Part shown: positions 26,512 through 47,848 of the stretch, piece by piece
Layout: every line of letters begins with the position of its first letter
Numbering within the stretch: position 1 is the first letter of the stretch
Source of the DNA: Eretmocerus hayati
Lineage: Eukaryota; Arthropoda; Insecta; Hymenoptera; Aphelinidae
DNA: 64,000 nt
Reading direction: 5' to 3'
Assembly (NCBI GenBank): GCA_029851415.1
Contig: CM056744.1
Span: 104,193,338-104,257,337, forward strand
The notes under the pieces: generated by a model
Databases searched by the model: none
What the model was told of the DNA's origin: nothing
Seen by the model: the letters and a program-made list of their open reading frames with translations, nothing else
Made by a program: the position numbers and the translations under genes

Positions 26512-26532
26512 ATCTACTTTTTGAAACCAATC

Positions 26533-26548
26533 GGCTCTCTTCAGGGCC
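26533..26548 (+). promoter_or_regulatory. Histone-type mRNA 3' stem-loop, copy 1
   Basis: GGCTCTCTTCAGGGCC folds into a 6-bp stem (one T-G pair) with a 4-base loop. It lies 21 nt after the stop at 26,511 and is preceded by CCAATC and followed by AACAA. The layout matches replication-dependent histone mRNA 3' ends (GGYYYU, four-base loop, ARRRCC). The second copy at 47,719 is a better match and shares the CCAATC flank. Confidence 0.7.
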
Positions 26549-26618
26549 AACAACATACTTACAACGTAGAGAACTTTCCGTTCTTATTGCGGTCTGTTGG
26601 AATGTGAATTTCACATTC

Positions 26619-27030: not shown

Positions 27031-27348
27031 ATGATGAGAATTCCTCATTTCAGAGGCGTTTTTATGAGAGATACTTTGCCATCATCGGGTCCTCTGGAGA
27101 ATGAGGCCTGCATATGCCATCTAGATTCGTCTCGCAATCTCGGTACTCATTGGGTTTGCTGGCGGAAGCAAGGTGATGATATTTTCTATTTCGATAGTCT
27201 TGGAGATCTACAGCCGCCTGTGGAAGTACTACTCTACCTCGGAGTCGAGGAGGTGAAGTACAATCACACAAGGTTTCAGAATTATGATATTTTCAACTGT
27301 GGGAATTTAAGTCTCGACTTCTTAAGGGGGTTCGATAGCGACTTGTGA
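27031..27348 (+). CDS. Adenain-type cysteine protease of an endogenous virus
   Basis: A 105-residue ORF with the order of an adenovirus-type protease (peptidase family C5): His in GTHW (residue 40), Asp in FDS (55), Gln in RFQN (83) and Cys in NCG (90). These are the catalytic triad and oxyanion residues, all intact. The opening RIPHFRGVFMRDTLP is shared with other insect copies known to me. It ends soon after the Cys block, as relatives do. Such proteases mature capsid precursors. An AATAAA follows at 27,373. The N-terminal part may be lost through the frame change upstream, so activity is not assured. Confidence 0.85.
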   Translation: MMRIPHFRGVFMRDTLPSSGPLENEACICHLDSSRNLGTHWVCWRKQGDDIFYFDSLGDLQPPVEVLLYLGVEEVKYNHTRFQNYDIFNCGNLSLDFLRGFDSDL

Positions 27349-27372
27349 GTCAAGGTGAAAACCGATAATAGC

Positions 27373-27378
27373 AATAAA
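27373..27378 (+). terminator. Polyadenylation signal after the protease
   Basis: AATAAA lies 25 bp after the protease stop, on the same strand. No histone-type stem-loop is present here. Confidence 0.45.
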
Positions 27379-27461
27379 CCCAAGAATCCATATTCGCATT
27401 CCTGACTGCTTTAATTCCTATCTGTAAATTCAAAATAGTTAAATTAATTAAGTGCCTGTCC

Positions 27462-27500
27462 AATTTTATCCGTCCGGATGCCTCGTATCGTGGTGGCGTC
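27462..27500. repeat. Repeat-end motif, copy 1
   Basis: CAATTTTATCCGTCCGGATG followed by CCTCGTATCGTGG recurs at 39,985-40,025 and 40,049-40,088 in the same orientation, that is, on both sides of the large palindrome. It contains a small ATCCG-TC-CGGAT hairpin. It may be the terminal part of the Helitron-type element or of another repeat family. Confidence 0.7.
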
Positions 27501-27563
27501 GTTGGAGCTGTTGGTGGGTCGGTGGGTCGGTGGGCCGGTGGGGTCCGGCGGGTCGGTGGGTCC

Positions 27564-27781
27564 GGTGGTGGTGGTGGTGGTGGTGGTGGTGGTGGTGGTG
27601 GTGGTGGTGGTGGTGGTGGTGGTGGTGGTGGTGGTGGTGGTGGTGGTGGTGGTGGTGGTGGTGGTGGTGGTGGTGGTGGTGGTGGTGGTGGTTTTGGTGG
27701 TGGTGGTGGTGGTGGTGGTGGTGGTGGTGGTGGTGGTGGTGGTGGTGGTGGTGGTGGTGGTGGTGGTGGTGGTGGTGGTGG
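27564..27781 (+). repeat. (GGT)n microsatellite, about 72 copies
   Basis: Almost pure GGT over 218 bp with one GGTTTT interruption at about 27,691. Long ORFs of poly-Gly, Val or Trp (plus) and poly-Pro or His (minus) here are artefacts. G-rich strand may form two-layer G-quadruplexes. Confidence 0.98.
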
Positions 27782-27965
27782 TCCTTCATTCATTACATTA
27801 TGTACATTTCACGAACGAATTGATTCTTGATTGTGAGTAGAAATTATAAATTGTTGTGATGCTGTGGAGAATACATAATATTTCAAATTCAACACTACAC
27901 ATGTGGGGATAATAGAAACTAAGGAATTCGACTGAATTTGTTCAAGAGCTATTCGAAATTCTGAG

Positions 27966-28358
27966 TTAATCACAAAATATTTCTGGATATGCAACATTCG
28001 TGGTATAAATCTGAGTTCCAGCGAAAGGCGTTTTAGATGAATTTTCTGAAAGTATTTGTTCTCTGCTCTTCCTAGCACTATTTTTCATGACAATTTTCAA
28101 ATTTTCTTTCGTTGTGACTCTTGCCAGAGCAACGTATAATCGCCCATGTGCAAATACTGGTGCCGGCAAATAGATCCCAACGCTTTCAAATGATTGTCCT
28201 TGAGACTTATTTATAGTAATTGCAAATCCGATTGTGAGAGGGAATTGCCGACGTATCATAGACAGAGAGATTTCATTCTTTGAAGATTTGATGTTGATTC
28301 TTGGAATGAATACCGTATCGTTTTTATTTTTCCCGTTAATGATTTTTGCAAAAATCAC
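27966..28358 (-). pseudogene. Helitron/PIF1-type helicase, C-terminal fragment
   Basis: The minus-strand ORF carries late helicase motifs: RRQFPLTIGFAITINKSQGQSFESVGIYL and HGRLYVALARV, matching motifs V and VI of PIF1-family helicases. It ends NVAYPEIFCD-stop; a tail of the form N-V-Y-x-E is common at the end of Helitron Rep/Hel proteins. Only about 130 residues remain; the 5' part is replaced at 28,360 by a minisatellite. A stand-alone PIF1 gene fragment is less likely given the repeats around it. Confidence 0.75.
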
Positions 28359-28362
28359 GCAG

Positions 28363-28490
28363 GTTTAGGTTAGTGTAGGTCGGTCTCATCCGGTGTAGTT
28401 CAATCTGATTTGTTCTTGTTTGGTTTAGTTCACTCTAAGGGAGCCTCATTCGGTCTAGGTCTAATGCTAAGGTCTAATGCTAAGACCTTA
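28363..28490 (+). repeat. GGTCT-type 10-11-bp minisatellite, left
   Basis: Degenerate units such as GGTCTAGGTCTAATGCTAA and GGTTTAGTTCACTCTA. The same family is seen at 40,980-41,340, on the far side of the palindrome. Confidence 0.6.
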
Positions 28491-29344
28491 TTATACAATG
28501 TGACCACTATATTTCTGGCAAATATATGTAGCAGTTTTTGGTGCGGTAAAAAAATTGAGGAGTAAACGTTTTCTGGCTCAATATTTGATGCTCTTTCGAT
28601 TGGTATTTTCAGAATTTAAAAATTTTTTGAAAATTGATTTTTTTCAAAAAAAATTGGTCGAAAAAAAGATCGGACTGAAATTTTGACGCTTGCGCGTGAT
28701 TTTCCGTGTTTTTTTACATAAGAATAGCGTTATTCCTCTTTCCAATCGAATCAAAATATTTGAAATGAAGAGATTCAAAATTGCAGATTTGGATGAATTT
28801 TGAATTATTAGTCGGGTAATGTGACGGTCAAAACCGTGATTCGAGGTTACGAGTTTTATTGACAAACCAGCTCATGCCCGCGAGCAAAGCAACATGAAGC
28901 ATCAGAGCAAAAGTGAATTCCGGTGTATTTTAATTTGCTGTGTTCAACTAATTATACACTTAGTTTGTACTCTGCATCCTAAGGGAGTATTGGGACGTTG
29001 TTTTCCGAGGTCTTGGATATTGTGTATTTCTTGCTTCATTGAAGCCTTTTACTTCTGCTAGCTCCTGCTTCTGCTGTCATGAGGGGCCGAGGGGGCGAGG
29101 GGCCGTGCGCCCGGTGCGAGACGCTCAGTTTTTGCATGAATTGATGTTATTTTTATACGTTACATCAATTTATGGCATCGATCACTGGTTCTACGCTTGC
29201 TCATATGAACTGCTTGTTTGATTTCTAACATGTGATGTAAAGTGTGATATTAGAGGTTATGGTATGATATTCTATTATTGAGGAATGAATGTTATCTGAG
29301 CGAGTGTGCATATAACTCTATTGGATCGGATAAACCAAGAATGA

Positions 29345-30552
29345 TTATTCGAGACTGGGTATACAAATAGAGTGTCGGGGCTTTTTCTCGGTTTGAGACT
29401 GCTCTTACAATATCTCTGTTGATTGTGAGATAATATTATAAGCATAGAAACGTGCTACAATGACTGTTTAACCATGACCAAGTTTTAGACGATAAAATCA
29501 CACTCAATCCGGCCAAGGCCATATTGATGCTCGAGTCTGGGTATACAAACGGCGCGTTTGAGCCCTTTCAACGGCTCGTGACCAAGCTTTTAAAACCTGA
29601 GTCAATTGCTAGATCACTAAAAGAGTTTGAAGGCAATTATCAACGACATTTCGATCAGGATCTCGTTTATTTCGATTGTTCGAATAACTTTATTTTGAAA
29701 AATAAGCCGAAATCAATGCTCAAAATTGGGTGTACAAACGGCGCGTTTGAGCTCATTTGTTGGCTCGAGACTGCTCTTACAATAGCTTTGTCGATCGTGA
29801 GATCGTACTATATGCATAGAAACGTGCTACAATGACAGATGACTTCAGCAAGACTAAGTTTTTACATGAACGATAGAATCACCCTTGAGCCGAACAAAGC
29901 CATATCGATGCTCGAGTCTGGGTATACTAACCGCGCGTTTGAACTCATTTGTCGGCCTGAGACTGCTCTCATAATACCTGAGTCAAATGTTGGATCATCC
30001 AAAGAGCTCGGAGATGATCACAAACGATATTTTGACCAGGATCTCGTTTTTTCGTGGTCTGAATACCTTCATTTTAAGAAATGAGCCAAAATCGCTGCTC
30101 GAGTTTGGGTATGCAGACGGCGCGTTTGGGTTTTTTCTCGGTCCGCGACTGCTCTTATAATATCAGTGGCGATTGTGAGATCATACCATGAGCACAGAAA
30201 CGTCCTCTGGTGACAGTCCAATCTTGATCAGATTTCTTCGAAGCCATATCGATGCTCGAGTCTGGGTATACAAACGACACGTTTGAGGCCTTTCAACGGC
30301 TCGTGACCAAGCTTATGAAACCTTAGTCAATTGTTAGATTACAATATGAGCTTATTACTAACGATATTTCGACCAGAATCCTTTTATTCTCATGGTCTAA
30401 ATAACTGTATTTTAACAAATAAGCCGAAATCAATGTTCAACATTGGGTGTACAAACGGCGCGTTTGAGCTTATTCGTCGGCTCGAGACTGCTCTCACAAT
30501 AGCTTTGTCGATCGTGAGATCATACTATAAGCATAGAAACGTGCTACAATGA
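29345..30552 (+). repeat. 185-bp tandem array, about seven units (left arm)
   Basis: Units start near 29,345, 29,528, 29,718, 29,909, 30,094, 30,252 and 30,434, each with GGGTATACAAACGGCGCGTTTGAG or a close variant; longer versions add CGAGACTGCTCTTACAATA and CGATCGTGAGATCATACTATAAGCATAGAAACGTGCTACAATGA-like parts. Spacing is 158-191 bp. Mirror copy at 37,915-39,125. Confidence 0.85.
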
Positions 30553-30571
30553 AAGATGAAGCAAGACCGCA

Positions 30572-31333
30572 ATGACACTCGCCAAGGACAGGTATGAGAT
30601 CACATCGACAATCGCGGAAGACCGGTATGGGATCAGATCGACACTCGTCGAGAACTGGTTTGGGACCAGAGCGACATTCACAGCGGAACAGTACGGGAAC
30701 AGATCGATACTTGCCGACAACCGGTACGAGACCGAATCGACACTTGCCGAGGACCGGTACAGAGCCGAATCAACACTCGCGGAGGACTGGTACGGGATCA
30801 GATCGACATTCATCGAGGATCAGTACGGGATCAGATTGACACTAGCAGAGAACCGATACGACACCGAATTGACACTCGCCAAGTACTGGTATAGGACCAC
30901 ATCAATACTCATGGAGGACCGGTACGGGATCAGATCGACACTCGCCGGGAATCGGTTTGGGACCGGATCAACACTCGCTGAGAACTGGTTTGGAACCAGA
31001 TCGACATTCACAGAGGACCAGTACGAGACCAGATCGACACACACCGAGGACTGGTACGAGACCGAATCGACACTCGCCAAGGTCCGGTACAGGGCCAAAT
31101 CAACACTCGCGGAGGACTGGTACGGGATCAGATCGACATTCATCGAGGACCAGTGCGGGACCATATCGACACTCGCCGAGAACCGGTACGGGACCGAATC
31201 GACATTCGCCAAGGACCGGTACTGGACCAAATCAACTCTCACGGAGGACCGGCTCGGGATCAGATCGACATTCACAGAGGACCAGTACGGGACCAGATCG
31301 ACACTCGCCAAGGAGCGGTACAGGACTAAATAG
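30572..31333 (+). repeat. 33-bp minisatellite, about 23 units (left arm)
   Basis: Consensus about GACCGGTACGGGATCAGATC plus GACACTCGCCGAG. Because 33 is a multiple of three and the units lack stops, several frames stay open on both strands (for example 253 residues of an 11-residue repeat TLAEDRYGIRS). Not taken as a gene. Mirror copy at 37,112-37,895. Confidence 0.9.
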
Positions 31334-31569
31334 ACTTGCTCCTCAAAATCAGCCAGACAACCAAAAACGACGTGCGGCAAATCATCATCCACCCGATTAT
31401 TCTCAGTAAGTTAGAGGACAGATTTCTACTAAGGTCGTGTAAATTTGAGCTTGATATTTTACAAGAGATAATCTGATTAATTTTAGACTTGTCAAGGAAC
31501 TCTCTGTAATGATAGAGAGCTCAGTGTCTCACTTCCAAGTTGAAATTGAAAGAATTTAACGTTTGCGAT

Positions 31570-32280
31570 ACTTAGATTAGGATTGTAGCTCATGCTGAAG
31601 ATATCTTCAGCGAAAGTGAAGTTTAAGTCTTGAACTGTAGCGGACGCGAAAAACATCGATAGCGTGGGCACAGACGGAAATTTGGACTGGAGTGTACGCG
31701 GAAAATCTAATTTGGCTCGGAGCGCACGCTGAAGACACCTTGAGTGTAGGCGTAGGTTAGATTTTCAATTGTAGCGTACCCGGAAGACATTCCTAGCGTT
31801 TGCAAAGATAAGATTATGAATTGTACCGCACGGTAGAGGCTTTTCAGGTTGCGTTACAATCGGAATTTAATCAGTGTAGCGTACGCAGAAATTGAATTTA
31901 GATTGTAGAAGACGTTCATGATTCCTTTAGCGTACGCAAAGCTCAAATTCTCAATTGTAGTGCACGCAAAAGACATCATTAACGTACACGAAAATGAAAT
32001 TTTTGATTGTAGCGGGCGCGAAGGGCATTTCAGGGTGCCTTCAAATTCACATTCAATTTTCGCTTACGCTCAATGTATCATTCGCGTGTGCTACATTTCG
32101 AGGTGGATTTCAAGGAATTCAGCCTACCCGAAATTTGAATTTGGATTCTAGCGCACGGTCGAAATACCTCTAGTGAACTCGAAGATTCATTTTGGAACTG
32201 TAGCGCATGCAAAAAACATCGATCGCGTACGCGCAGATGAAATCATGAACTGTTGCGTACGCGAAATTAATTAATTAATT
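31570..32280 (+). repeat. GCGTACGC-rich array, about 60-bp units (left arm)
   Basis: Degenerate units contain TTGTAGCGTACGCGAAAGACAT or GAATTGTAGCGCACGC with two GCGTACGC-like half sites about 30 bp apart. Mirror copy at 36,185-36,890. Confidence 0.8.
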
Positions 32281-32865
32281 CTATCACGTCAATCATATTC
32301 CTGGATGAAAAAAGTTTGTAAACGAGATTCTCCTTGTTTATAAACTGAAACTCGAAATGTTAACTATTTTTAACTGTTCCTAACAGGGACCCGAAACTCA
32401 GCACTCGAGTAGGTTTGAATAGTCGACTTTCTTCGAGCCAGCTAGGAAACGTTTCGTTGATAAATCATTCAACCCCAATTCCTGAAGTTTTATCAAATCT
32501 AGCTACTGCATCCTCAAAGCCACACAAAAAATGCAAAAAGGCGCCGAGTGCAAAAATGCTATTTGTATACTGTATACTATGTCAATGTTGACGTTCGACT
32601 CGGGATCCTAACCTCCACAATGGCCTCTATTTTCCACAGCTTCCGGAACAAATTTCTCAATAACCGTAACCGATAGGAAACCGACTCTGTTTGAACATTT
32701 GCTCCGGGAATTTCAATCTCTCCGTATGCCATGTCTCGTAGAAGATTACAGAGATCCAGAAACAATGTATTTGGTGCGGGGTCCTTTAGTAGGACTGCCA
32801 AAAATCGTGCCCAGGTGTGCCCTTACGATGAAATTTATGTGATGCGCGAAACAGGTCAGTGTATG

Positions 32866-33420
32866 ATCTGGATCAATTTCCACACGGTCCTACAACGGTC
32901 CCAATCGTGTCTCTGAGTGGTGTCACTCGTTTCCCACGACGGAATTACATTGGAATCCGATCAATCGTCTGCTCGGGCAATCACGCTCCAAATTCAGTAG
33001 GACTGATGTGAATCTTACTGATGTGTGCTCTTTCGATGGGATTCGTGTGATTTACGAACCAGACCCGCTCCTGGTCCGGATCAGTAGCGATTCGGTCTCA
33101 CAACAGTCCCAATCGTGTGTCTGAGTGGTGTGACTCGTGTCTCATGTCGGAATTAAACTTGATTTCACGGAACAAGGTTCAGACGAACTTGCATAGCCCT
33201 TGGCCAATTGTCTGTTTGGGCAATCATGCTCCAAATTTAGTAGGACCACCGTAAATCTTGTTCAGGAGTGTCCATCAGATCTAATTGAGAAAACAGACCT
33301 ATTCATGGTCCGGATCAATGTCAATTTGGTCCCACAACGGTCCGAATCGTGTCTCTGAGTTGTTTCACTCGTGTCTCACGACGAGATTACTCATGATTCC
33401 GGGGAACAAAGTTCAGACGA
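32866..33420 (+). repeat. 200-230-bp tandem units, three copies, third outside the palindrome
   Basis: Units share GGTCCGGATCA, a GGTC-CACAACGGTCC-AATCGTGTCTCTGAG core and ACTCGTGTC. Copies centre on about 32,900, 33,115 and 33,345. The third lies in the spacer, so the palindrome breakpoint falls inside a tandem array. Confidence 0.75.
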
Positions 33421-35488
33421 GCCTAGTCCGTGCAAGTCGAATGTTGTGGGTAATTGTTCCCTCACTCTTTCTAAGTAATGGCTCCGGCCTTTATCTGCTC
33501 AAGATCGTTCTCATTTTTGCAAACATGTCAGATTTACTGAGCACGACCCCCTCTCTGATCCGCCCCTGCTGGCCTTGTCCTTTTGTATTGTTACGATACT
33601 TCGCAAGATACAGGGCAATATACATTTGGTGGAGGGAATCAAATTGAATAAATGAGCTACCATGAGATCCTACAATGCTCTCTGTGCCGCTCTCATCACC
33701 GGACAACTCGGAAAGACTCGTTCGGGAGGGGAGAACATTTAACAAATCTAACTTGTTTCCAAGATCTAGAACGATTTTTGGCGAAAAAAGCCTGAGCCAT
33801 TACTTAGAATGAGTAAGCGATCACCTTACAACATTCTAGTTGCACCAGGATAGCTCCTAACCCACGCATTAGATACTTGTGTCAAAAAGTTGTAGGGGTG
33901 AGCCATTATAACAGGCTGTATTTTTGAATTGTGCTATTAATCCCCTTCAGAGTTACTTCTTCGCAATTAACCTAAGGATAGCCAAATTTAGCCGCGATTA
34001 AGTAAGCAACAAGTGGCGTCATCTGCTCCGTTGTTTTGCCCGGCACCTCGGCGGCGCACAGTGAGAAATCAAAACAAAGTCTTGGTCGCTAGCAGCCATC
34101 TAAAGCATAGGCGCTAATGGCAAGGAATTCGCCTCGATTTCTCACTGTGCGGTGGTGGCGTGATGTTCACCAATGAGGTTTTTTTGGTGTTATTGTGAGT
34201 GCTGAAAACCCTGCAAGTGTTGTGACAGACGTTTTGCGCAGCTAATTGAGCTCTGGAGACCCCCAAACAGCGGCGGCAACGTGTCATCCTGATACGGGGA
34301 TGACGTGCACGTCGCAACCATAGCCATCTCAGCTGCAAGAACACCTGCCGTTTTTCAAATAAGGACTCAACTCTGAGTGTTTTCCTCCGCTGTTTTCTGC
34401 ATGAAGTACTTAGATAAAGTCCGCCGGCAATTTTTTATCGCCCTGCATTCCCGAAATACATTGCACTTTTTGCTTGCGCAAAGTTATAATTGGATACGGC
34501 TACCCTATACATTAGCATGGAACTGTCCTTAACCATCACCAAGGATGGCCAATTTTGGGCTTCTTGTCATTAAAAGCATGGGCGAATAGTCAAGAATGTT
34601 ATGAAGGATACCAGCTATGAGATGCACAAATTTTCATACTCCTAAGATAATCTCATCTCAAATTTGACAAATGGCCTCTATTGCGGTTTTTAGGAACGAA
34701 GGTGTAGTGCGACTACAAAGATAGTCTGGTGCCATTTGGATGTGTCTGGCTGGATTTTTCAGGTTCTCAGCCTCATCATGACACATATGAGACCACTTTA
34801 AACCTGTTTTCATGTTGAACTGATGAATAAGAGGTGAGTGCTCGAAAATCCGCATCTGAATTTTCTACTTTCTAAGTCTGTGAACTGATGAAAAAGGATG
34901 AGTGAATATACGCATCTCAGCTGATTACAACTACATGCTAGTTTTATACTGGATATATTTCTAATGTGTTCTTTTGATCGTCTGTGCGCAAGTTAGTCAT
35001 TCGCACACTGTTTTTTCGCTTTTCATTTGCTCACAGAAGATCAAAAAACATAGTATGATGCTCGGAGGCAATGGTTTTCGCTTCCCCGTGACTATTTAGA
35101 CACTCACCTGCGGCTCGGGCCTAAAAAAAGTCACTCGAATTGCGAAAACCATCGTTTGTGCCCTTGGATCATAATATACTATTGTGGTTTTTAGGTAATT
35201 GATGATGGAAACTGGCAGCTGCAGCAACAAATGTCACCACAACTTAGTTGTACCATTTCTTGACATTTTATCTCCATCTCACCCAGCACTCAAAGAAACA
35301 GTGGCTCCTTATCTTAATAAGATGAGACTGAATAAACTGATTTTTCTATTGTAGAGCCATGTTTCATCTTAACTTTTGAACTTCTTTTTCTAGTTTTCAT
35401 GAAAAGAAACCTCATATTACAGGTTGTGATCGGTACTTCGATTAATAGTACTGATTGGAATAGATTTGACAGATGTTTTGACAGAAGT
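33168..35488. other. Spacer (loop) of the giant inverted repeat
   Basis: 2.3 kb between the arms. Holds the third 200-bp unit, a short inverted repeat (GCGCACAGTGAGAAATC at about 34,054 with GATTTCTCACTGTGCG at about 34,136) and a hairpin at 35,041-35,180 (ATGGTTTTCGC with GCGAAAACCAT). No transposase or other gene is recognisable. Confidence 0.6.
35041..35180. repeat. Small hairpin element in the spacer
   Basis: Outer TAGTATGAT and GAGGCAATGGTTTTCGC pair with GCGAAAACCATCG-TTTGTGCCC and ATCATAATATACTA across about 70 bp of loop. MITE-like. Confidence 0.5.
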
Positions 35489-38400
35489 TTAATTCCGACA
35501 TGAGACACGAGTCACACCACTCAGACACACGATTGGGACTGTTGTGGGACCGAATCGATACTGATCCGGACCAGGAGCGGGTCTGGTTCGTAAATCACAC
35601 GAATCCCATCGGAAGAGCACACATCAGTAAGATTCACATCAGTCCTACTGAATTTGGAGCGTGATTGCCCGAGCAGACGATTGATCGGATTCCAATGTAA
35701 TTCCGTCGTGGGACACGAGTGACACCACTCAGAGACACGATTGGGACCGTTGTAGGACCGTGTGGAAATTGATCCAGATCATACACTGACCTGTTTCGCG
35801 CATCACATAAATTTCATCGTAAGGGCACACCTGGGCACGATTTTTGGCAGTCCTACTAAAGGACCCCGCACCAAATACATTGTTTCTGGATCTCTGTAAT
35901 CTTCTACGAGACATGGCATACAGAGAGATTGAAATGCCCGGAGCAAATGTTCAAACAGAGTCGGTTTCCTATCGGTTACGGTTATTGAGAAATTTGTTCC
36001 GGAAGCTGTGGAAAATGAAGGCCATTGTGGAGGTTAGGATCCCGAGTCGAACGTCAACATTAACATAGTATACAGTATACGAATAGCATTTTTGCACTCG
36101 GCGCCTTTTTGCATTTTTTGTGTGGCTTTAAGGATGCAGTAGCTAGATTTGATAAAACTTCAGGAATTGGGGTTGAATGATTTATCAACGAAACGTTTCC
36201 TACGTTACGTACGTACGTTCATGATTTCATCTGCGCGTACGCGATCGATGTTTTTTGCATGCGCTACAGTTCCAAAATGAATCTTCGAGTTCACTAGAGG
36301 TATTTCGACCGTGCGCTAAAATCCAAATTTGAATTTCGGGTAGGCTGAATTCCTTGAAATCCTCCTCGAAATGTAGCACACGCGAATGATACATTGAGCG
36401 TAAGCGAAGATTGAATGTGAATTTGAAGGCACCCTGAAATGCCCTTCGTGCCCGCTACAATTAAAAATTTCATTTTCGTGTACGTCAATGATGTCTTTCG
36501 CGTGCACTACAATTGAAAATTTGAGCTTTGCGTACGCTGGAGGAATCATGAACGTCTTCTACAATCTAAATTCAATTTCTGCGTACGCTACACTTATCAA
36601 ATCCCGATTGTAACGCAACCTGAAAAGCCTCTACCGTGCGGTACAATTCATAATCTTATCTTCGCGAACGCTATGAATGTCTTTCGGGTACGCTACAATT
36701 GAAAATCTAACCTACGCCTACACTCAAGGTGTCTTCAGCGTGCGCTCCGAGCCAAATTAGATTTTTCGCGTACACTCCAGTCCAAATCTCCGTATGTGCC
36801 CACGCTATCGATGTTTTTCGCGTCCGCTACAGTTCAAGACTTAAACTTCACTTTCGCTGAAGATATCTTCAGCATGAGCTACAATCCTAATCTAAGTATC
36901 GCAAACGTTAAATTCTTTGAATTTCAACTTGGAGGTGAGACACTAAGCTCTCTATCATTACAGAGAGTTCCTTGACAAGTCTAAAATTAATCAGATTATC
37001 TCTTGCAAAATCTCAAGCTCAAATTTACACGACCTTAGTAGAAATCTGTCCTCAAACTTACTGAGAATAATCGGGTGGATGATGATTCGCCGCACGTCGT
37101 TCTTGGTTGTCTGGCTGATTTTGAGGAGCGAGTCGATTTAGTCCTGTACCGCTCCTTGGCGAGTGTCGATCTGGTCCCGTACTGGTCCTCTGTGAATGTC
37201 GATCTGATCCCGAGCCGGTCCTCCGTGAGAGTTGATTTGGTCCTGTACCGGTCCTTGGCGAATGTCGATTCGGTCCCGTACCGGTTCTCGGCGAGTGTCG
37301 ATATGGACCCGCACTGGTCCTCGATGAATGTCGATCTGATCCCGTACCAGTCCTCCGCGAGTGTTGATTTGGTCCTGTACCGGTCCTTGGCGAATGTAGA
37401 TTCGGTCCCGTACCGGTTCTCGGTGAGTGTCGATCTGGTCTCGTACTGGTCCTCTGTGAATGACGATCTGGTTCCAAACCAGTTCTCAGCGAGTGTTGAT
37501 CCGGTCCCAAACCGATTCCCGGCGAGTGTCGATCTGATCCCGTACTGGTCCTCCATTAGTATTGATGTGGTCCTATACCAGTCCTTGGCGAGTGTCAATT
37601 CGGTGTCGTATCGGTTCTCTGCTAGTGTCGATCTGATCCCATACTGATCCTCGATGAATGTCGATCTGATCCCGTACCAGTCCTCCGCGAGTGTTGATTC
37701 GGCTCTGTACCGGTCCTCGGCGAGTGTCGATTCGGTCTCGTACCGGTTGTCGGCAAGTATCGATCTGGTCCCGTACTGTTCCGCTGTGAATGTCGCTCTG
37801 GTCCCAAACCAGTTTTCGACGAGTGTCGATCTGATCCCATACCGGTCTTCCGCGATTGTCGATGTGATCTCATACCTGTCCTTGGCGAGTGTCATTGCGG
37901 TCTTGCTTCATCTGTCATTGTAGCACGTTCCTATGCTTATAGTATGATCTCACGATCGACAAAGCTATTGTAAGAGCAGTCTCGAGCCGACGAATGAGCT
38001 CAAACGCGCCGTTTGTACACCCAATGTTGAACATTGATTTCGGCTTATTTGTTAAAATACAGTTATTTAGACCATAAAAATAAAAGGATTCTGGTCGCAA
38101 TATCGTTAGTAATAAGCTCATATTGTAATCTAACAATTGACTAAGGTTTTATAAGCTTGGTCACGAGCCGTTGAGAGGCCTCAAACGTGTCGTTTGTGTA
38201 CCCAGACTCGAGCATCGATATGGCTTCGAAGAAATCTGATCAAGATTGGACTGTCACCAGAGGACGTTTCTGTGCTCATGGTATGATCTCACAATCGCCA
38301 CTGATATTATAAGAGCAGTCGCGGACCGAGAAAAAGCCCAAACGCGCCGTTTGCATACCCAAACTCGAGCAGCGATTTTGGCTCATTTCTTAAAATGAAG

Positions 38401-39976
38401 GTATTCAGACCACGAAAAAACGAGATCCTGGTCAAAATATCATTTGTGATCATCTCTGAGCTCTTTGGATGATCCAACATTTGACTCAGGAATTATGAGA
38501 GCAGTCTCAGGCCGACAAATGAGTTCAAACGCGCGGTTAGTATACCCAGACTCGAGCATCGATATGGCTTTGTTCGGCTCAAGGGTGATTCTATCGTTCA
38601 TGTAAAAACTTAGTCTTGCTTCATCTGTCATTGTAGCACGTTTCTATGCATATAGTACGATCTCACGATCGACAAAGCTATTGTAAGAGCAGTCTCGAGC
38701 CAACAAATGAGCTCAAACGCGCCGTTTGTACACCCAATTTTGAGCATTGATTTCGGCTTATTTTTCAAAATAAAGTTATTCGAACAATCAAAATCAACGA
38801 GATCCTGATCGAAATGTCGTTAATAATTGCCTTCAAACTCGTATAGTGATCTAGCAATTGACTCAGGTTTTAAAAGCTTGGTCACGAGCCGTTGAAAGGG
38901 CTCAAACGCGCCGTTTGTATACCCAGACTCGAGCATCAATATGGCCTTGGCCGGATTGAGTGTGATTTTATCGTCTATGTAAAAACTTGGTCATGGTTAA
39001 ACAGTCATTGTAGCACGTTCCTATGCTTATAATATTATCTCACAATCAACAGAGATATTGTAAGAGCAGTTTCAAGCCGAGAAAAAGCCCCGACACTCCA
39101 TTTGTATACCCAGTCTCGAATAATCATTCTTGGTTTATCCGATCCAATAGAGTTATATGCACACTCGCTCAGATAGTATTCATTTCTTAATAATAGAATA
39201 TCATACCATAACCCCTAATATCACACTTTACATCACATGTTAGAAATCAAACAAGCAGTTCATATGAGCAAGGGTACAACCAGTGATCGATGCCATAAAT
39301 TGATGTAACGTATAAAAATAACATCAATTCATGCAAAAACTGAGCGTCTCGCACCAGGCGCACGGCCCCTCGCCCCCTCGGCCCCTCATGACAGCAGAAG
39401 CAGGAGCTAGCAGAAGTAAAAGGCTTCAATGAAGCAAGAAACACACAATATCCAAGACCTCGGAAAACAACGTCCCAATACTCCCTTAGGATGCAGAGTA
39501 CAAACTAAGTGTATAATTAGTTGAACACAGCAAATTAAAATACACCGGAATTCACTTTTGCTCTGATGCTTCATGTTGCTTTGCTCGCGGGCATGAGCTG
39601 GTTTGTCAATAAAACTCGTAACCTCGAATCACGGTTTTGACCGTCACATTACCCGACTAATAATTCAAAATTCATCCAAATCTGCAATTTTGAATCTCTT
39701 CATTTCAAATATTTTGATTCGATTGGAAGGAGGAATAACGCTATTCTTATGTAAAAAAACACGGACAATCACGCGCAAGCGTCAAAATTTCAGTCCGATC
39801 TTTTTTTCGACCAATTTTTTTAGAAAAAAATCAATTTCCAAAAAATTTTTAAATTCTGAAAAGACCAATCGAAAGAGTATCAAATTTTGAGCCAGAAAAC
39901 GTTTACTCCTGAATTTTTTCATCGCACCAAAAACTGCTACATACATTTGCCAGAAATATAGTGGTCACATTGTATA
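35489..39976 (-). repeat. Giant inverted repeat, right arm (4.49 kb)
   Basis: Mirror of 28,492-33,167: two 200-bp units (35,489-35,780), the GCGTACGC array (36,185-36,890), the 33-bp array (37,112-37,895), the 185-bp array (37,915-39,125) and the unique outer part to 39,976. Near 36,205 it carries TACGTTACGTACGTACG where the left arm has about 180 bp more. Confidence 0.95.
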
Positions 39977-39984
39977 TTCCACGT

Positions 39985-40088
39985 ATATTAATTTTATCCG
40001 TCCGGATGCCTCGTCTTGTGATGGCGTCGCTGGTGATATTATATAGTATCCAATTTTATCCGTCCGGATGCCTCGTATCGTGGCGGCG
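39985..40088. repeat. Repeat-end motif, copies 2 and 3
   Basis: Two same-orientation copies (about 39,985-40,025 and 40,049-40,088) of the motif at 27,462, one directly outside the right arm. Direct copies on both flanks suggest the palindrome was inserted into, or is bounded by, this repeat family. Confidence 0.7.
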
Positions 40089-40259
40089 CCGCAGGTGCTG
40101 TTGGTGGGTCAGTGGGTTAGAGGGTCGACGGATCGGTGGATCTGTGTTGGTGTTGCTGGTGATGGCTTTTGACTTATCCGTACAGATGGGCAGTTGATTT
40201 GATGGTCCGATCAGTTGTTCTAGGTTCCAATCAGTCAAAACTTTTTTTTGGATCGATGG

Positions 40260-40990
40260 GCTGTGTCTGGGGTCGAGGCTGGGGCAGGGGCTGGGGCTGT
40301 GACTAAGGCTGGAGCTTAGGCTTTTGGGGCTGAGTCTGGGTCTGTGGCTGAGCTGATGCTGGGACTAAGGCTAGAGCTGAGGCTGGGGCTGACGCTGGAC
40401 TGCGGCTGGGTTCGAGGCTGGGTCTGGGGCTACGAGTGAAGCTGAGGCTGGGACCAAGGCTGGAGCAGAGGCTGAGGCTGTGTCCGTGTCTGAGGCTGAG
40501 GCTGGGGCTAAGGCTGAGGCTGGGTCTGAGGCTGCAGCTAAGGCTGAGGCTGTGGCTGGGGCTGAAGCTCGGGCTAAGGCTGGGACTGAGGCCGAAGCTA
40601 AGGCAGCGGCTACATGCAGTCGTTTGAGGCGATTCTGGGACAGTGAGACAGCGCCTCCATCGGAGGCTGCGGTGGTGTTTGCTTCAAATTACATGGAGAA
40701 AACGGCTCGATTACCACTAGAGGCGCTGTACACTGTCTCAGAATCACCTCAAACGACTACATATACCCGCACCCGGAGGCTTAGGCTGAGGCTGGGGTCA
40801 ATGTTGGGGCTGAGGCTAAGCTGGAGGGTGGCCGCGAGGCTGAGGTTGGAGCTAACGCTGAGGCTGAGGCTGAATCTGTGACTGTGACTGTGACTAGGGA
40901 TGATATGGGGCTGGGGACAAGGCTGGGGCAGTGGCTAAACCTGAGACTGACGCTAGAGCGGAGGCTGGGACTAAAGCTGTTAGGTCTAGA
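40260..40990 (+). repeat. GGCTGA/GGCTGG hexamer-based minisatellite
   Basis: Runs of GGCTGAGGCTGGGGCT and variants. Ala/Glu- or Leu/Arg-rich ORFs here (for example 40,480-40,881) are repeat artefacts. Interrupted by a small MITE at 40,616-40,762. The same family recurs at 43,200-43,420. Confidence 0.9.
40616..40762. mobile_element. MITE inserted in the minisatellite
   Basis: 147-bp unit with inverted ends of about 45 bp: AGTCGTTTGAGGCGATTCTG at the left and the reverse complement of a close variant at the right, each continuing into ACAGCGCCTC. Short direct repeats (ACAT) flank it. No coding capacity. Confidence 0.7.
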
Positions 40991-41340
40991 ATGGCCTACT
41001 TCGGTCTAATTCGATGCAGGATGGTCTAGATCGGTTCAATTCGATCTAACTCGGTCTAGTTTGGTCTAATTGAGTCCAGCTCGGTCTTGCTCGGTCTAGT
41101 TCGGGGTCATCAGGTCTCATTCGGTCTAGTTCGGTTGTATTAGGTTTAGTTCAGTCTAATTTGGTTTAGTTGAGTCTGGTACGGTCTAATTCGGTGTGGC
41201 TCTATCGATTCCAGTCTGGTTTGGTCTAGTTCAAGCCAGGTCGATCTATTCCGTTCCAGCTCGGTCTAGCTCGGTCTAGCTCGGTCTGGTATGGTCAAGC
41301 TCCGTCCAGTTTGGCCTTATTCCGTATTTCTGTCATGAGA
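40980..41340 (+). repeat. GGTCTAGTTC 10-11-bp minisatellite, right
   Basis: Units such as GGTCTAGCTC, GGTCTAATTC, GGTTTAGTTC repeated over about 350 bp. Same family as 28,363-28,490. Confidence 0.85.
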
Positions 41341-42215
41341 TCAAGAGGCGCGGTAGCGCCTCGCTGGCGAGTATGAGCAGACGAAAAATCGAGCGAGGCG
41401 CTGTGCCTATTCTATACTTTGAATTGGGGTTTTTTAACCTTACACTTTTTTTCTACTTGGATTATTAACCTCTTAACGTTGCTCATAGAGCTCTGCGATG
41501 CTTTAGCAAAGCCTTTCTAAAGCGATTCAGACTTCTGTACAATTATTTTCTCAATCCGAGCACTGGACGCGTTTTATTCAGCACCGCAAAATCATGCCTT
41601 TGTTTTACATCTCAGTTCGATTTCTTCAGCCCCGTGTTTCGACTCGAGAAATATCGAAACGTCTCTACTACACATGTGTTGGGTATGTAAGATGGTCGAG
41701 GAAGAGAGAGAGATGCAGAGAAAGAGATGATGAGAGATATAGAAGCGCGTGCGCAAGATCTTGCTGTGCTGTCCGGTTGATGGCAGTCTGCGATTAGGCT
41801 GTCTGCTGCGTACCGGGCAACGCGGGCACCGACCAGCTGGTTTGTTATCGCGGATAAATGAATTTTCGAATTATCTGAATTTCTCGATTCTATAGTTATT
41901 TCATCAGATGTGGATACTCGAAACTAGCCACGACTAGAGGTGACGTAAAGATCAAAGCGCCGCATGCGAGAAGGACAGGGAGGAGAGATTCGTCTGCTTT
42001 GTTGTGTTTTGTGTGTTCGTCGCGGCTCCGCAATATCTTGCTCTTGCCTGTAGCTGCATGGCTCTCCAAGTTGAACTGAACGAAATATACACTGATAGTA
42101 GTGTATTTTTATGAAAAAATGACGGAGCCGTTTGTAAGAAATTCTCAAGTGCGGTGGGAACAAGTGCTTAGAAAATTTGTGGCTACACTTGGATTTTTAT
42201 AACCAAGGAGTGAGA
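41341..42215. other. Non-coding stretch
   Basis: No supported gene. A short GAGGCGC palindrome pair is seen at about 41,345-41,365. Confidence 0.35.
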
Positions 42216-42216
42216 T

Positions 42217-42975
42217 CCCCCCCCCCCCTCGATCACTTTTTTTTCAAAAGTAAAACTAGGCGAGTATGAGGTTTAGAAAAGAACCATTCATCTCCAGTAC
42301 ATCAAAACTTCAAATTTTATACGACATGGTTTAAACTCTTGGAAGGAATGAGATCTAAAAAAACCATGTCGAGTATTTTTTGAGCCGATATGTCACGATC
42401 AACATATCATCACTGATAGAGACTAGTGCCACTTTCCTCCAATCAAATCTTTCTTTCAATTCATCCTAATGCTGGTGGTTTGACAATTTCTTACTAGCTA
42501 ATTGTCGCTGAAATGACCCGAAGTTTAGGTGAGTAGAAGAGGTACAGGGGAATATCGAAATAGAGAAAATATAACTGAGTTTAATTTGGTTTTCATGATG
42601 ATTCACTAAAATCTCATATTTATATTTTCTCTATTTCGATATTCCCCTGTACCTCTTCTACTCACCTAAACTTCGGGTCATTTCAGCGACAATTAGCTAG
42701 TAAGAAATTGTCAAACCACCAGCATTAGGATGAATTGAAAGAAAGATTTGATTGGAGGAAAGTGGCACTAGTCTCTATCAGTGATGATATGTTGATCGTG
42801 ACATATCGGCTCAAAAAATACTCGACATGGTTTTTTTAGATCTCATTCCTTCCAAGAGTTTAAACCATGTCGTATAAAATTTGAAGTTTTGATGTACTGG
42901 AGATGAATGGTTCTTTTCTAAACCTCATACTCGCCTAGTTTTACTTTTGAAAAAAAAGTGATCGAGGGGGGGGGG
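42217..42975. mobile_element. Young foldback element with perfect 350-bp arms
   Basis: Arms 42,217-42,574 and 42,620-42,975 are reverse complements with no mismatch seen beyond the terminal homopolymer (12 C left, 10 G right). The loop is about 45 bp. Ends are poly-C/poly-G followed by TCGATCAC. GAT or AT flanks both ends as a possible short target duplication. No ORF. Identity implies recent insertion or gene conversion. Confidence 0.9.
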
Positions 42976-44130
42976 ATATCATTAAAGCCAAAATTTGTCC
43001 GTCAGCATCTTGCGTATCGGGTTGCCTATGTGGAGGGAGTGAACTTCGATGGCTGGCCGTATGAGTCATGGGTGGGTCATGGGTGGGTAGATGGTTGGAT
43101 GGGTTGGTGGGTGAGTGGGCGTTAGTGGTCAGGTGGGTGGGTTGACGCATGGATGAATGTACTTGAACTTTAGTGATTTCAGTGAGAATTACTAAAGTTT
43201 CAGACTGGGGCTAAGGCTAAGGCTGACGCTGGGGCTGGGTCTTGGTCTAAGGCTGGGCCTGAGGCTGGACTGAGGCTGTGGTTGGGGTTAAGGCTGAAGT
43301 TGTGACTGGGACTGAGGCTAAAACTATATCTGGGACTGGGGCTGGGGCCGTGGAGGGTGCGTGTCTGAGGCAGGAGCCGGGATTGGGGCTGAGGCCGTCA
43401 CTGGGGCTATCCAACTGAGGGAAATTTCCAGATACTCACCGGAGATTTACTACTTCACTATGCGCAACATCACACCAACTCAATAGTTCTCAATCAAAGT
43501 TACTAGGTTGCATCAAGAAAATTGTTTTCTTCCGAATTCACTGTATTACGAAATCTGCATGTTACATTGTTGAGCTACAGAAGCATTTCAGGGGCTCATA
43601 CCATATCAGAGACACTTCCAAGCCGGACGAGCGCTAGCGAGGTAGGCAAAAGCGCTAGTATGAATTAAGATGAGACCAAAAATAGTTTTTACAATGATAG
43701 AGTCTGTGAAATTATAATTTATAATTTCTGGTGCATCGCTTGACCACCGTCACCTCGCTGCAACGAGCACGGGAATTACATGTATAACCTCCGCGTCATC
43801 AGTTTGTATTCAAAATTTCTCTTCAAAATGTCCGTCAACCCCCTATTTTTATCGATTCATAAGGAAGTATGGAATCACAGTTTCCTACACCTAGTTTTTC
43901 ATCATTGTGGCCGATAAATACAGAGAGATATCGCGTCACTTGCTGCCGGAAAATTTGATACGCCCATAAGACGTGGGTTAAACATCCAATTTTCAAATAA
44001 ATTTCTCTCAAAAATGTCATCGTCAACCCATATTCTTTTCAACGGCAATCGATTCAGGGGCTCTCAATCTACAAGTTTTATCAATCCCATTTGCCTGGCC
44101 GAAAAAGTCAGTAACTATCGAACCCCCTTA
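42976..44130. repeat. GGGT array and GGCT minisatellite, then non-coding
   Basis: A GGGT/GGAT run at about 43,065-43,155, a GGCTAAGGCTGAGG-type minisatellite at 43,200-43,420, then AT-rich sequence with no gene up to the first capsid promoter. Confidence 0.6.
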
Positions 44131-44930: not shown

Positions 44931-44938
44931 TATAAAAG
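44931..44938 (+). promoter_or_regulatory. Virus promoter 2: TATA box of the major capsid gene
   Basis: TATAAAAG, preceded by GGACGAGGG (a weak version of the GTGGGAG box), 147 bp upstream of ATG 45,078. ATCATCAGTC about 25 bp downstream resembles an arthropod initiator. Confidence 0.65.
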
Positions 44939-45077
44939 TCGAAAGCCATGCGGAGCCATCATCAGTCGACAAAGAGCTGTGAAGCCGTTAACACGACAGA
45001 ACATTCAGTTCCTGAAGAGCATCGGTCTGAGAATTGCTGCCCGTGGTGGGAAATAACTTGTATATTTTTCTGTTGCA

Positions 45078-46308
45078 ATGGAAGAGGCTCTAAATATTCA
45101 ATCACCGGTCGCTTACGACGAATCGGTGGCGTACTATGAGGTTCACGCGCATCAGCCGTACGCCACATCAACGTTCAACAACGGTGATGAGATTAGAATA
45201 TCAATTCAACATCAAGACTTGAGTCTGCTCCCTTCTCGGAGTTCACTCCACGTAAGCGGCGAGTTAACCAAGACAGATGAAACTCCATTGACTGTCACAA
45301 AGTTTGTGAATAATAGCCCATGTTACCTTTTTGAAGATGGTATTTACAATGTCAATGGGGTGGAGATAGATAGGTGTAAGAATGTGGGTATGACAAGTGT
45401 CATGAAAGGTTGGTCATCATTTCAACCAAATCAGAGAATAACACTAGAGAACGCTGGTTAGATTGATGTAGAGGAAACTCGATCGATATGTGACGCAAAT
45501 GGCATTTTGATGTATTGATTTCTTTGAACATTATGTTCGGCTTTGCTGAGGATTACCGAAAAATTGTGGTCAATGCTAAGCATGAACTAGTGCTTGTCCG
45601 ATCTCGTTCGGACTTGGACTGTGTCACTCAAACTACTGTGCGGGATGGTGAAAATCGGGTGTATGAAAATTTCAAAAAAACCTTGAATAAAGTAGAATGG
45701 CTCATGCCGTGGTCTCGGATAGAGTGAAGATTCATCTCTTCAAATATATTCAGAGAGACAAGCCTATCAGTATGAGTTTTCGAACGTGGGAGTTGCACAA
45801 GTATCGTCTCTTACCAACTGCTCAAAAACATGTATGGACGGTCAAGGCTTCGAGTCAACTCGAAAAACCACGCTTCGTTATTCTTGCTTTCCAAACGAAT
45901 CGGAAAAATGTCAAAGACAAGAGTTGGAGTCAATTCGACCACTGCAGTGTTAGTGATATCAAACTATTTCTCAATTCACAATGTTATCCATGTGAAAACA
46001 AAAACATGCAAATTGATCGCAATCAATTCGCCATTCTGTATGACATGTACTGTAATTTCCAGAATTCATTTTATGGAAAAGAGAATGAGCCCATGTTAAC
46101 AAAATCTCAATTCATTACGTACGAACCATTGATATTTATCGATTGTTCAAAACATAATGAGACAATGAAGAGCGCACCGATTGATATTCGCCTCAAGTTT
46201 GAATCTAGGAATAATTTTCCTGCGAATATATCAGCCTATTGTTTGATATTACACGACAGAATTGTTGAGTATAATCCAATCAGCGGCAACGTGAATAAAC
46301 TTGTTTGA
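45078..46308 (+). pseudogene. Double-jelly-roll-type major capsid protein of an endogenous virus, broken
   Basis: ATG 45,078 opens a frame with SVAYYEVHAHQPYATSTFN, SLLPSRSSLHVSGEL and NGVEIDRCKNVGMTS, ending at TAG 45,459-45,461. The same frame continues briefly, then the reading frame changes at about 45,500-45,515 (segment with MFGFAEDYRKIVVNAKHEL) and again at about 45,700-45,715 (segment with VKIHLFKYIQRDKP, TWELHKYRLLPT, FVILAFQTNRK and SAYCLILHDRIVEY) to TGA 46,306-46,308. Full span about 1.23 kb (about 410 codons). These motifs are shared with uncharacterised insect proteins that I take to be hexon-like capsids of Polinton/adintovirus elements. Three breaks make it non-functional. Confidence 0.78.
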
Positions 46309-46314
46309 GGAGAG

Positions 46315-46338
46315 AGAGTGGGGGAAACTCTATAAAAT
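46315..46338 (+). promoter_or_regulatory. Virus promoter 3: GTGGGGG box plus TATA
   Basis: GAGAGTGGGGGAAACTC followed by TATAAAAT (46,331), 45 bp upstream of ATG 46,376. It begins within 10 bp of the capsid gene stop, so genes are tightly packed. Confidence 0.65.
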
Positions 46339-46375
46339 CAGCCGTCGGATACTCTAAAAGTTATTCTACCTCGAG

Positions 46376-46787
46376 ATGGAGTACGTGGTGGACATGCAAG
46401 CAACCAGTAGATGATTTCGTCTTAAAAAAGCTGTCCATAGCTCCACTCAATGGTGATTCAAAGCCTCGAGTATTTCTATTCCAACAACCATTCCCGTTCC
46501 GGAGATTTGCAGAGAAATACAGACGAGAAAATACTTGGCTTGAAAGAGCTTATCATGGCATCTCTTGGGAAGCTGGTGAAATTTCCTATACTGAGATAGG
46601 CAATGCACTCCGAGAAAATCTTAAGGATGCAACAATGATTCACGTAGTGGGTCAAATGAAGAAGAAGTGGTCGGAGCGCTTCAAATTCAAAGTTCGTGAC
46701 GTCACAGAATCAGGATTTGTAAACTTGGAAATGATATACTCACAGAAGTTGGTGACTGTCTGTCCGCATCACACAGAGTCTTACTAA
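46376..46787 (+). pseudogene. Conserved virus-associated protein, frameshifted near the start
   Basis: ATG 46,376 reads MEYVVDMQ and then meets a stop; the neighbouring frame picks up at about 46,398 with KQPVDDFVLKKLSIAPLNGD and runs to TAA 46,785-46,787. Conserved-looking blocks are FLFQQPFPFRR, NTWLERAYHGISWEAG, YTEIGNALRENLKDAT and KKKWSERFKFKV. I know this pattern from uncharacterised proteins widespread in insect genomes next to the same capsid genes. Function unknown. One small indel at 46,395-46,402 explains the break. Confidence 0.6.
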
Positions 46788-46856
46788 GCGGTGTGTGCTC
46801 AGCATTATTCGGAATTGATCAGAAAATTTTTGAAAAATCACAAGAGAAATGAGATT

Positions 46857-46877
46857 GAGTGGGAGTGACTATAAAAG
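46857..46877 (+). promoter_or_regulatory. Virus promoter 4: GTGGGAG box plus TATA
   Basis: GAGTGGGAGTGAC followed by TATAAAAG (46,870), 46 bp upstream of ATG 46,916. The clearest copy of the composite promoter. Confidence 0.7.
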
Positions 46878-46915
46878 GCGTTCAAGGGCTGAACTGACGT
46901 CATTCTATCAATACG

Positions 46916-47068
46916 ATGGGTAACAGTCACAGCGACAAGCAAGAGCGTACTCCTCTTTTAGAGGATTACAGAAAAAATCAAGGTGAGCCATCTCGTGACG
47001 AGTGGAAGAGTTATGGGCGCAATCCCTCTTCTGCCCCACTTAAAGTTCCTCGTCAAGAAGGATTATGA
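46916..47068 (+). CDS. 50-residue protein with N-myristoylation-type start
   Basis: ATG 46,916 to TGA 47,066-47,068, intact. It begins MGNSHSDKQER: Gly at 2, small residues at 3-4 and Ser-rich context at 4-6 fit an N-myristoylation signal, and the rest is polar and charged (LLEDYRKNQGEP, SRDEWKSYG). Own TATA box 46 bp upstream, within a row of virus genes. Likely a small membrane-targeted virus protein; no homologue recognised. Too short for most gene finders. Confidence 0.55.
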   Translation: MGNSHSDKQERTPLLEDYRKNQGEPSRDEWKSYGRNPSSAPLKVPRQEGL

Positions 47069-47091
47069 GAAAGTGAGACCTTGGAAATGAG

Positions 47092-47157
47092 TGGGAGGTG
47101 GTGGTGGCGGCTCGACTTTGGAAGAGTGGAGGGAGCGCCGTCTGAAAGGTATAAAAC
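47092..47157 (+). promoter_or_regulatory. Virus promoter 5: GTGGGAG box and TATA, separated
   Basis: GAGTGGGAGGTGG (about 47,091) and a second GAGTGGAGGG (47,124) lie upstream of TATAAAAC (47,150). The TATA is 60 bp before ATG 47,210. Confidence 0.6.
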
Positions 47158-47209: not shown

Positions 47210-47698
47210 ATGGGTTACTTCTTCACTGTCTGCGTGCACTTCCTCGATGAGGCTGGAAAATCTCAGAGGATCGAGGTCTCACACTCTTACAAAGGGACGC
47301 CTGCCATCGAAAATTGGAGTCTACTACCTGGAGAAGTCAAGGTCAAGGTCAATCTCTACCACGAGGATGATTTATGCAAGACATGCTTGGAGACAGCAAA
47401 GATTGAATTTGATACCATGAATAACAACTTGTGGATTTCCGATCGTTTCTTCTATAATTTTGAGACCAAAAATTATTGTGATTACTATCGTGAGCGGATC
47501 ATTCAAGATGCTGCGATGTACCTTGCAAACGAAAAGTATCAGCGTTCCACACAATATTTAGGCAAGCTGAACTTATGGGTGAATAATTTGAACGACTGTG
47601 GAATTGGTAAAGGAGATCATTCACGTATGCAGGCATTGAACATTGAAGTTTACGAGCACGACTATCCTACATTTGAGAATGAATGGAAAAAATACTAA
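47210..47698 (+). CDS. Intact 162-residue protein of the virus block, unknown function
   Basis: ATG 47,210 (MGYFFTVCVHF) to TAA 47,696-47,698, uninterrupted. Acidic and aromatic-rich; contains IENWSLLPGEVKVKVNLYHEDD, LCKTCLETAK, ISDRFFYNFETKNYC and YLGKLNLWVNNLNDCGIGKGD. A CKTC pair and scattered Cys are present but no zinc finger is clear. No signal peptide or membrane segment. An earlier GTG in frame at 47,198 is not a likely start. Own TATA box upstream and a canonical histone-type stem-loop 20 nt after the stop. Intact while its capsid neighbours are broken, so either younger decay by chance or retained. Confidence 0.6.
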   Translation: MGYFFTVCVHFLDEAGKSQRIEVSHSYKGTPAIENWSLLPGEVKVKVNLYHEDDLCKTCLETAKIEFDTMNNNLWISDRFFYNFETKNYCDYYRERIIQDAAMYLANEKYQRSTQYLGKLNLWVNNLNDCGIGKGDHSRMQALNIEVYEHDYPTFENEWKKY

Positions 47699-47718
47699 TG
47701 TGAACAGACAACCCAATC

Positions 47719-47734
47719 GGCCCTTTTCAGGGCC
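47719..47734 (+). promoter_or_regulatory. Histone-type mRNA 3' stem-loop, copy 2 (canonical)
   Basis: GGCCCTTTTCAGGGCC: a perfect 6-bp stem with a TTTC loop, followed by ACCA and preceded by CCAATC. It starts 21 nt after the TAA at 47,698. Every consensus position of the replication-dependent histone mRNA 3' element is met. The 5' flank matches copy 1 at 26,533. Confidence 0.85.
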
Positions 47735-47778
47735 ACCAAAATTTCATACGTATGAACAAACTGTCCAAAAAAAAATTT

Positions 47779-47848
47779 GCCAGAACCCGGAATCGAACCG
47801 GGATCTCATGATCAAAAGTCAGGCGCTCTACCGTTGAGCCATTCTGCC
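47779..47848 (-). tRNA. tRNA-like gene, anticodon loop CTTTTGA (TTT, Lys by position)
   Basis: Minus-strand 70-nt cloverleaf: acceptor GGCAGAA/TTCTGGC (one mismatch at pair 2), D arm GCTC/GAGC with AACGGTA loop, anticodon stem CCTGA/TCATG (one mismatch) with loop CTTTTGA, four-base variable region, T arm CCCGG/CCGGG with TTCGATT loop. A box TGGCTCAACGG and B box GGTTCGATTCC are consensus. A run of nine T follows the 3' end, a Pol III terminator. The two mismatches and G at position 37 (normally A in Lys tRNA) suggest a divergent or virus-borne tRNA, or a recent pseudogene. It points towards the last virus gene, 80 bp away. Confidence 0.75.

Follow-up and report, generated by a model that had tools for sequence, protein, structure and literature searches.

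Genes and stem-loops of the window

The window, by which we mean the whole stretch of 64,000 nucleotides of Eretmocerus hayati DNA that was analyzed, carries on its plus strand a major capsid protein gene with broken frames (positions 45057 to 46308), whose product matched the double jelly roll domain PF21738 with 229 bits. It is followed by a virus-linked open reading frame (ORF) (46360 to 46787), which has no stem-loop here but has distant relatives at two other loci (L053 and L057) that own one, and by a virus-linked ORF of 162 amino acids (aa) (47210 to 47698), which has at least 150 homologues in the genome and the mRNA of which would end at the stem-loop called copy 2 below. A protease-like ORF of the window had no significant Pfam match, and its similarity to ASFV pS273R had an E value of 0.42. 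Judging by the capsid protein, the virus appears to be Polinton-like; it has PF21738 and inverted terminal copies in common with Polintons/Mavericks and adintoviruses (Eupolintoviridae), and its protease-like ORF may correspond to their viral cysteine protease. IMG/VR yielded no relative of the capsid protein or of the 162-aa protein and no match to CAATCGGYYCTTTTCAGRRCC; the six IMG/VR stretches with GGYCCTTTTCAGGRCCA all lacked the CAATC flank and were taken for chance. Searches of the phage collection found nothing, and when the 162-aa ORF was used as a protein query, nothing came up at an E value of ≤0.01. TATA-like boxes were seen by eye just ahead of several virus ORFs (44937 to 47157, e.g., near 46332, 46873, and 47151).

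Two histone-type stem-loops, each preceded by CCAATC, were found on the plus strand, and both fold as the expected hairpin of 6 bp with a 4-nucleotide (nt) loop. Copy 2 (47719 to 47734; GGCCCTTTTCAGGGCC) is canonical and the same as the host histone form, its CCAATC (47713 to 47718) matches host histone 3' ends, and ACCA (47735 to 47738) stands directly 3' of the stem, in the expected cleavage region, histone-type cleavage taking place just past the stem. Between the stop codon TAA (47696 to 47698) and copy 2 there are 20 nt. The first-pass annotation had described the sequence, position, both flanks, and stop distance of copy 2 in this way, and its further statement that copy 2 meets every consensus position held as well, since no other site of the window matches GGYYYTTYTNARRRCC exactly. 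Allowing up to one mismatch to GGYYYTTYTNARRRCC gave four matches against 0.65 expected, and requiring in addition all six standard pairs on the two strands left only copy 2 and the site at 26533. In 150 dinucleotide shuffles there were 0.08 such sites per shuffle, 0.007 that were exact and paired, and none flanked by CCAAH. The Rfam model Histone3 (RF00032) scored copy 2 at 33.9 bits (E value, 5.1e-6), just below the gathering score of 34, and copy 1 at 20.1 bits (E value, 0.73).

Copy 1 (26533 to 26548, with CCAATC at 26527 to 26532) has one deviation, the first loop base being C for T, and lies 21 nt past the stop codon TAG (26509 to 26511) of an acidic-tailed ORF (26167 to 26511, plus strand). 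This ORF contains an in-frame TAG at 26413 to 26415 (frame read by eye) and has an uninterrupted relative at L054; following a broken ORF, copy 1 may simply be decaying. Its loop base has a precedent, since the hairpin loop of Caenorhabditis elegans histone mRNAs starts with C (CTTT or CTTA; PMC1924863). The two copies had been noted as lying 21 kb apart; this distance is inflated, because the sister copy L058 joins window positions 27330 and 44131 and so lacks about 16.8 kb (27331 to 44130) that are probably later insertions. Within this region (28492 to 39976) we observed long inverted repeats that are 97 to 99% complementary.

Match to host histone 3' ends

The host histone genes on contig C1 (H1, H2A, H2B, H3, and H4, recognized by eye from their C termini) end in CAATC-GGCCCTTTTCAGGGCC-ACCA, followed 12 to 15 nt on by an ACG-centered element. 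Ten such 3' ends of the host, nine of them with the CAATC flank, served to build a covariance model. This model scored copy 2 at 54.4 bits (E value, 6e-11) and copy 1 at 40.6 bits, and no other site of the window exceeded 13.4 bits. Both copies are followed on the plus strand by a putative histone downstream element, that of copy 2 (ACGTATGAAC, 47748 to 47757) at a host-like distance of 13 nt from the stem and that of copy 1 (ACGTAGAGAAC, 26564 to 26574), which has an ACG core, at a distance of 15 nt. From its sequence, then, the copy 2 stem-loop is of the type of the wasp's own histone 3'-end signal.

The downstream element was surveyed at 17 virus-linked or similar ends, comprising the two in the window and 15 others, 14 of them found by consensus match and one by the model, so that most came from searches blind to the element. 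Sixteen of the 17 had an ACG core at 12 to 18 nt beyond the stem, the exception being the end in L056, and none of 11 other consensus matches did. The 17 ends amount to fewer independent cases, because two near-identical pairs (L044/L045 and L046/L055) are among them, and L046 is only putatively virus-linked; left out of both counts were L009 (40.1 bits with the model, no ACG core), L011, the H2A-like fragment L012, all ends of host histone genes, and the copies of the LTR-like repeat described below. In the 15 cases of this survey with a measured distance, the stem-loops lay 15 to 46 nt past the stop. The downstream element, of which the first-pass annotation makes no mention, appears to be a second, independent signal, and it would make the case for a histone-type end stronger than first claimed. 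Searches with the Rfam U7 model found nothing in the wasp genome, and they found nothing in any of 14 control genomes either.

The capsid and protease-like genes of the window had no nearby site above 13.4 bits with the host-end model; they may share a downstream stem-loop or use AATAAA, which occurs at 46294 and 27373. AATAAA was also seen near 3 of the 17 ends, many of these stretches having been read to roughly 100 nt beyond the stem.

Distribution of the motif in the genome

The degenerate 16-mer had 847 sites genome-wide, compared with 879 for a reversed control, and the bare degenerate motif therefore means little. The first-pass annotation would have taken a random genome-wide occurrence at similar density as evidence against it; this is what the degenerate motif shows, but the exact host form GGCCCTTTTCAGGGCC accounted for 69 of the 100 listed sites (counted by hand). 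In our own reading, the first 30 loci comprised nine that belong to clusters of host histone genes, an H2A-like fragment, eight LTR-like copies, two other loci with ORFs (L009 and L011), and ten without a histone flank. Seventeen further short stretches, chosen from listed sites outside dense clusters, contained host histones (L041 and L043), an unflanked match (L042), LTR-like copies (L047 to L051), and nine cases with virus-linked or similar ORFs. The minus-strand ORF of L011 (1557 to 3014) encodes 486 aa without a Pfam match and is followed 37 nt later by a histone-type stem-loop with ACG at 14.

The LTR-like copies belong to a dispersed repeat of about 830 to 880 bp with TGTTACC...GGTAACA ends in the copies read, which looks like solo LTRs and of which two copies seem, by eye, to be flanked by 4-bp target duplications. 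It has a full histone stem-loop and downstream element near its 3' end and would thus be another mobile element that ends in the manner of histone genes. Copies were found at L037 (3226 to 4055), L038 (3210 to 4066), L039 (4633 to 5447), and L040 (3236 to 4064), with further ones at L013 to L015, L017, L021, L022, L024, L026, and L047 to L051.

Homologues of the 162-aa gene

Searching this genome with the 162-aa protein gave 150 matches among 433 candidates, from which the 30 best-scoring loci (one of them in the window) were picked by protein alone. The capsid gene lay upstream in 29 of them. In 25 of the 30 a model match of 29.8 to 56.9 bits stood right after the stop, the lowest score being that of L081, in which the loop is lost, and 19 matched a slightly relaxed consensus pattern. 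The other five (L084 to L088, 59 to 61% identical) retained an intact downstream element, but their hairpin was degenerate. These five loci look mosaic, in that their capsid gene is about 90% identical to that of the window and their 162-aa gene only 59 to 61%. Among 17 more divergent homologues, hand-picked to cover the listed classes, 11 had a model match (28.5 to 50.8 bits) one further small ORF downstream, and 6 had none within the stretch read; in all, 11 of the 47 homologues sampled blind to the motif were without a model match. Two homologues, L089 and L090, carry GGCCCCTTTTCAGGGGCC, in which an insertion on both arms adds an extra pair and the ACG core is lost.

When the 25 stem-loop-bearing copies were aligned, 5 of 449 letters of the stem plus CCAATC differed from the majority; the corresponding counts were 5 of 99 (loop), 18 of 350 (downstream element), 53 of 500 (stop plus leader), 474 of 7,410 (coding end), and 387 of 3,821 (downstream DNA). 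The stem plus CCAATC was thus about ten-fold less variable than the leader, with Fisher P values of 1e-10 against the leader and 8e-14 against the downstream DNA, which overstate independence because the copies share ancestry. No compensatory substitutions were seen in the 25 copies, as the stems hardly vary, and those substitutions that were observed break pairs (L068, L070, and L078). The check for stem conservation that had been proposed, here made on homologues within this genome, was therefore positive as to retention of the element (25 of 30 and 11 of 17) and negative as to compensatory changes. The broader claim of a system-wide 3' rule fared similarly: several different virus genes share the conserved element, but 11 of the 47 homologues lack it and the capsid and protease-like genes have no site nearby.

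These data bear on two simple explanations of copy 2. One is a chance match, and the degenerate 16-mer does indeed not exceed its reversed control in genome-wide frequency. Against it stand the shuffle rate, the model scores of 54.4 and 40.6 against 13.4 bits, the ACG core, the recurrence in 25 of 30 homologues picked without regard to the motif, and the low variation of the stem; we rejected chance, the probability of which we consider negligible, in agreement with the first-pass annotation. The other is that a host histone pseudogene, or the LTR-like repeat, lies by coincidence beside the virus gene and has copy 2 as its 3' end, as might be thought from the 86 to 91% match between the LTR-like repeat and positions 47712 to 47757. 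Its likeness to the repeat and to the host histones stops where the signal stops, however, and the signal follows the homologous gene at 24 further genomic sites, on which grounds a host remnant of either kind was likewise rejected as extremely improbable.

Other proviral loci and H3-like genes

A second copy of the virus region of the window, capsid gene included, lies at 77.795 to 77.813 Mb of C1 and has six model matches of 38 to 58 bits, which follow the 162-aa, YHGI, MGNS, H3-like, DNDD, and acidic genes. Within this second copy, L052 and L058 are each 92% identical to the window, over 1.5 and 2.3 kb, respectively. At 80.484 to 80.510 Mb of C1 there are seven model matches, one each in L055 and L077, two in L056, and three in L057, and L077 has a capsid gene. 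Two stem-loops (in L053 and on the minus strand of L057) have a C-A mismatch.

Two proviral loci contain a divergent histone H3-like ORF with a histone-type 3' end (L054, 1012 to 1443, minus strand, and L056, 861 to 1304, plus strand). These ORFs matched Pfam Histone with 76.0 and 71.7 bits and are 40 to 44% identical to host H3 and 44% identical to each other; a protein search gave two close relatives among two candidates, both from E. hayati. DNA viruses with histone genes are known (bracovirus H4, xenomavirus H3, and others), and PMC9145170 puts most single viral histones at 73 to 89%, in contrast to the 40 to 44% found here; its text does not contain the words stem-loop, SLBP, or polyadenyl.

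We compared corresponding genes between proviral copies. In the MGNS gene pair, 26 of 26 positions of the element matched, compared with 34 of 76 in the leader and 32 of 71 downstream (45% each), and in the YHGI pair, 25 of 26 matched, compared with 33 of 59 (56%) and 36 of 75 (48%). The acidic gene pair had 23 of 26 in the element and 37 of 54 before it, yet 67 of 70 after it; the H3-like pair, with 22 of 34, showed no excess conservation of the element in the alignment, and three other pairs were too similar to tell the element from its flanks.

It could be argued that the histone 3' end came in once with a captured gene, was spread by duplication, and is a passive relic without function in the mRNAs. 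The lineage does have H3-like genes with that very 3' end, and there is a clade in which the hairpin is lost although the capsid gene has stayed about 90% identical. We think this unlikely, since the element is better conserved than the DNA around it, both among the 25 aligned copies and in two diverged gene pairs, and since the element follows about nine different ORF families, each time a short distance from the stop.

Proposed mechanism and related systems

We consider it highly probable that the stem-loop and the downstream element constitute a histone-type 3'-end processing signal of a Polinton-like endogenous DNA virus of E. hayati. The match to the host signal, the orientation with the gene, the place after the stop, the recurrence after different genes, and the conservation are all directly seen. 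That virus genes end like host histone genes suggests that the virus messages are finished by the host histone-mRNA machinery and have no poly(A). Host SLBP would bind RNA polymerase II transcripts reaching the stem-loop, U7 snRNP would pair with the downstream element, for which AACGTNTGAAC is the candidate stretch, and the transcript would be cut a few bases past the stem. The resulting mRNA would carry no poly(A) tail, and its maturation and stability would therefore follow the host S phase. Genes upstream of one common stem-loop would yield 3'-coterminal mRNAs. The signal would have originated from a host histone gene, perhaps together with the divergent H3-like gene still present in the two proviral loci.

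A different role for the hairpin, in the DNA or otherwise in the RNA (replication, packaging, translation, or stability), with messages polyadenylated as usual, would fit two observations. One is that the 162-aa gene often occurs in inverted pairs 4 to 16 kb apart, so that the signal lies near the ends of the mobile element in some families; the other is the presence of AATAAA in the window and near some of the surveyed ends. Such a role is nevertheless decidedly improbable, because flank, loop, and downstream element each agree with the host histone form and are always oriented with the gene and because a downstream element would be superfluous for a function in DNA.

In its fullest form, the processing model holds that a Polinton-like lineage expresses a class of genes (acidic, H3-like, MGNS, 162-aa, and other small ORFs, apparently not capsid genes alone) as nonpolyadenylated, S-phase-coupled histone-type mRNAs by means of the host's full SLBP/U7 signal, gained with a captured host H3 gene, and that an LTR-like retroelement took the same route independently. 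To this combined proposal, as a reading of genomic sequence, we give slightly better than even chances.

The 3' end of replication-dependent histone mRNAs (RF00032, SLBP, and U7 snRNP) is the closest known system, the virus ends sharing with those of the wasp histones the stem, loop, CAATC, ACCA, and ACG-centered downstream element; unlike in that system, the genes here are virus-linked and mostly not histones. In Mimivirus and its virophage, a hairpin marks mRNA 3' ends, the messages are polyadenylated, and the hairpin lacks the histone consensus. The present case resembles this rule in that a hairpin would stand at mRNA 3' ends across one virus lineage and differs from it in having the histone consensus. 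For Polintons or adintoviruses, we found no description of a histone-type 3' end in the open-license PMC literature. Among the protein-coding mRNAs of animals, those of histones are regarded as the only ones to terminate in a stem-loop rather than poly(A) (PMC6303110). If the processing model is true, the many virus copies with a complete signal after nonhistone genes would be a natural exception, virus gene expression would be tied to S phase through a simple host mechanism, and RNA surveys based on poly(A) selection would overlook such transcripts.

A separate observation concerns the tRNA-Lys(TTT)-like gene that adjoins copy 2 on the minus strand (47778 to 47848) and is common to most sister copies. 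It was seen in none of L083 to L088, L044, and L045. An antisense tRNA-like gene about 60 nt past the stem-loop was present in 24 of the 25 stem-loop-bearing copies (the window and L059 to L082; 19 Lys, 2 Glu, 1 Gln, 1 Arg, and 1 undetermined), and the virus therefore seems to carry a tRNA.
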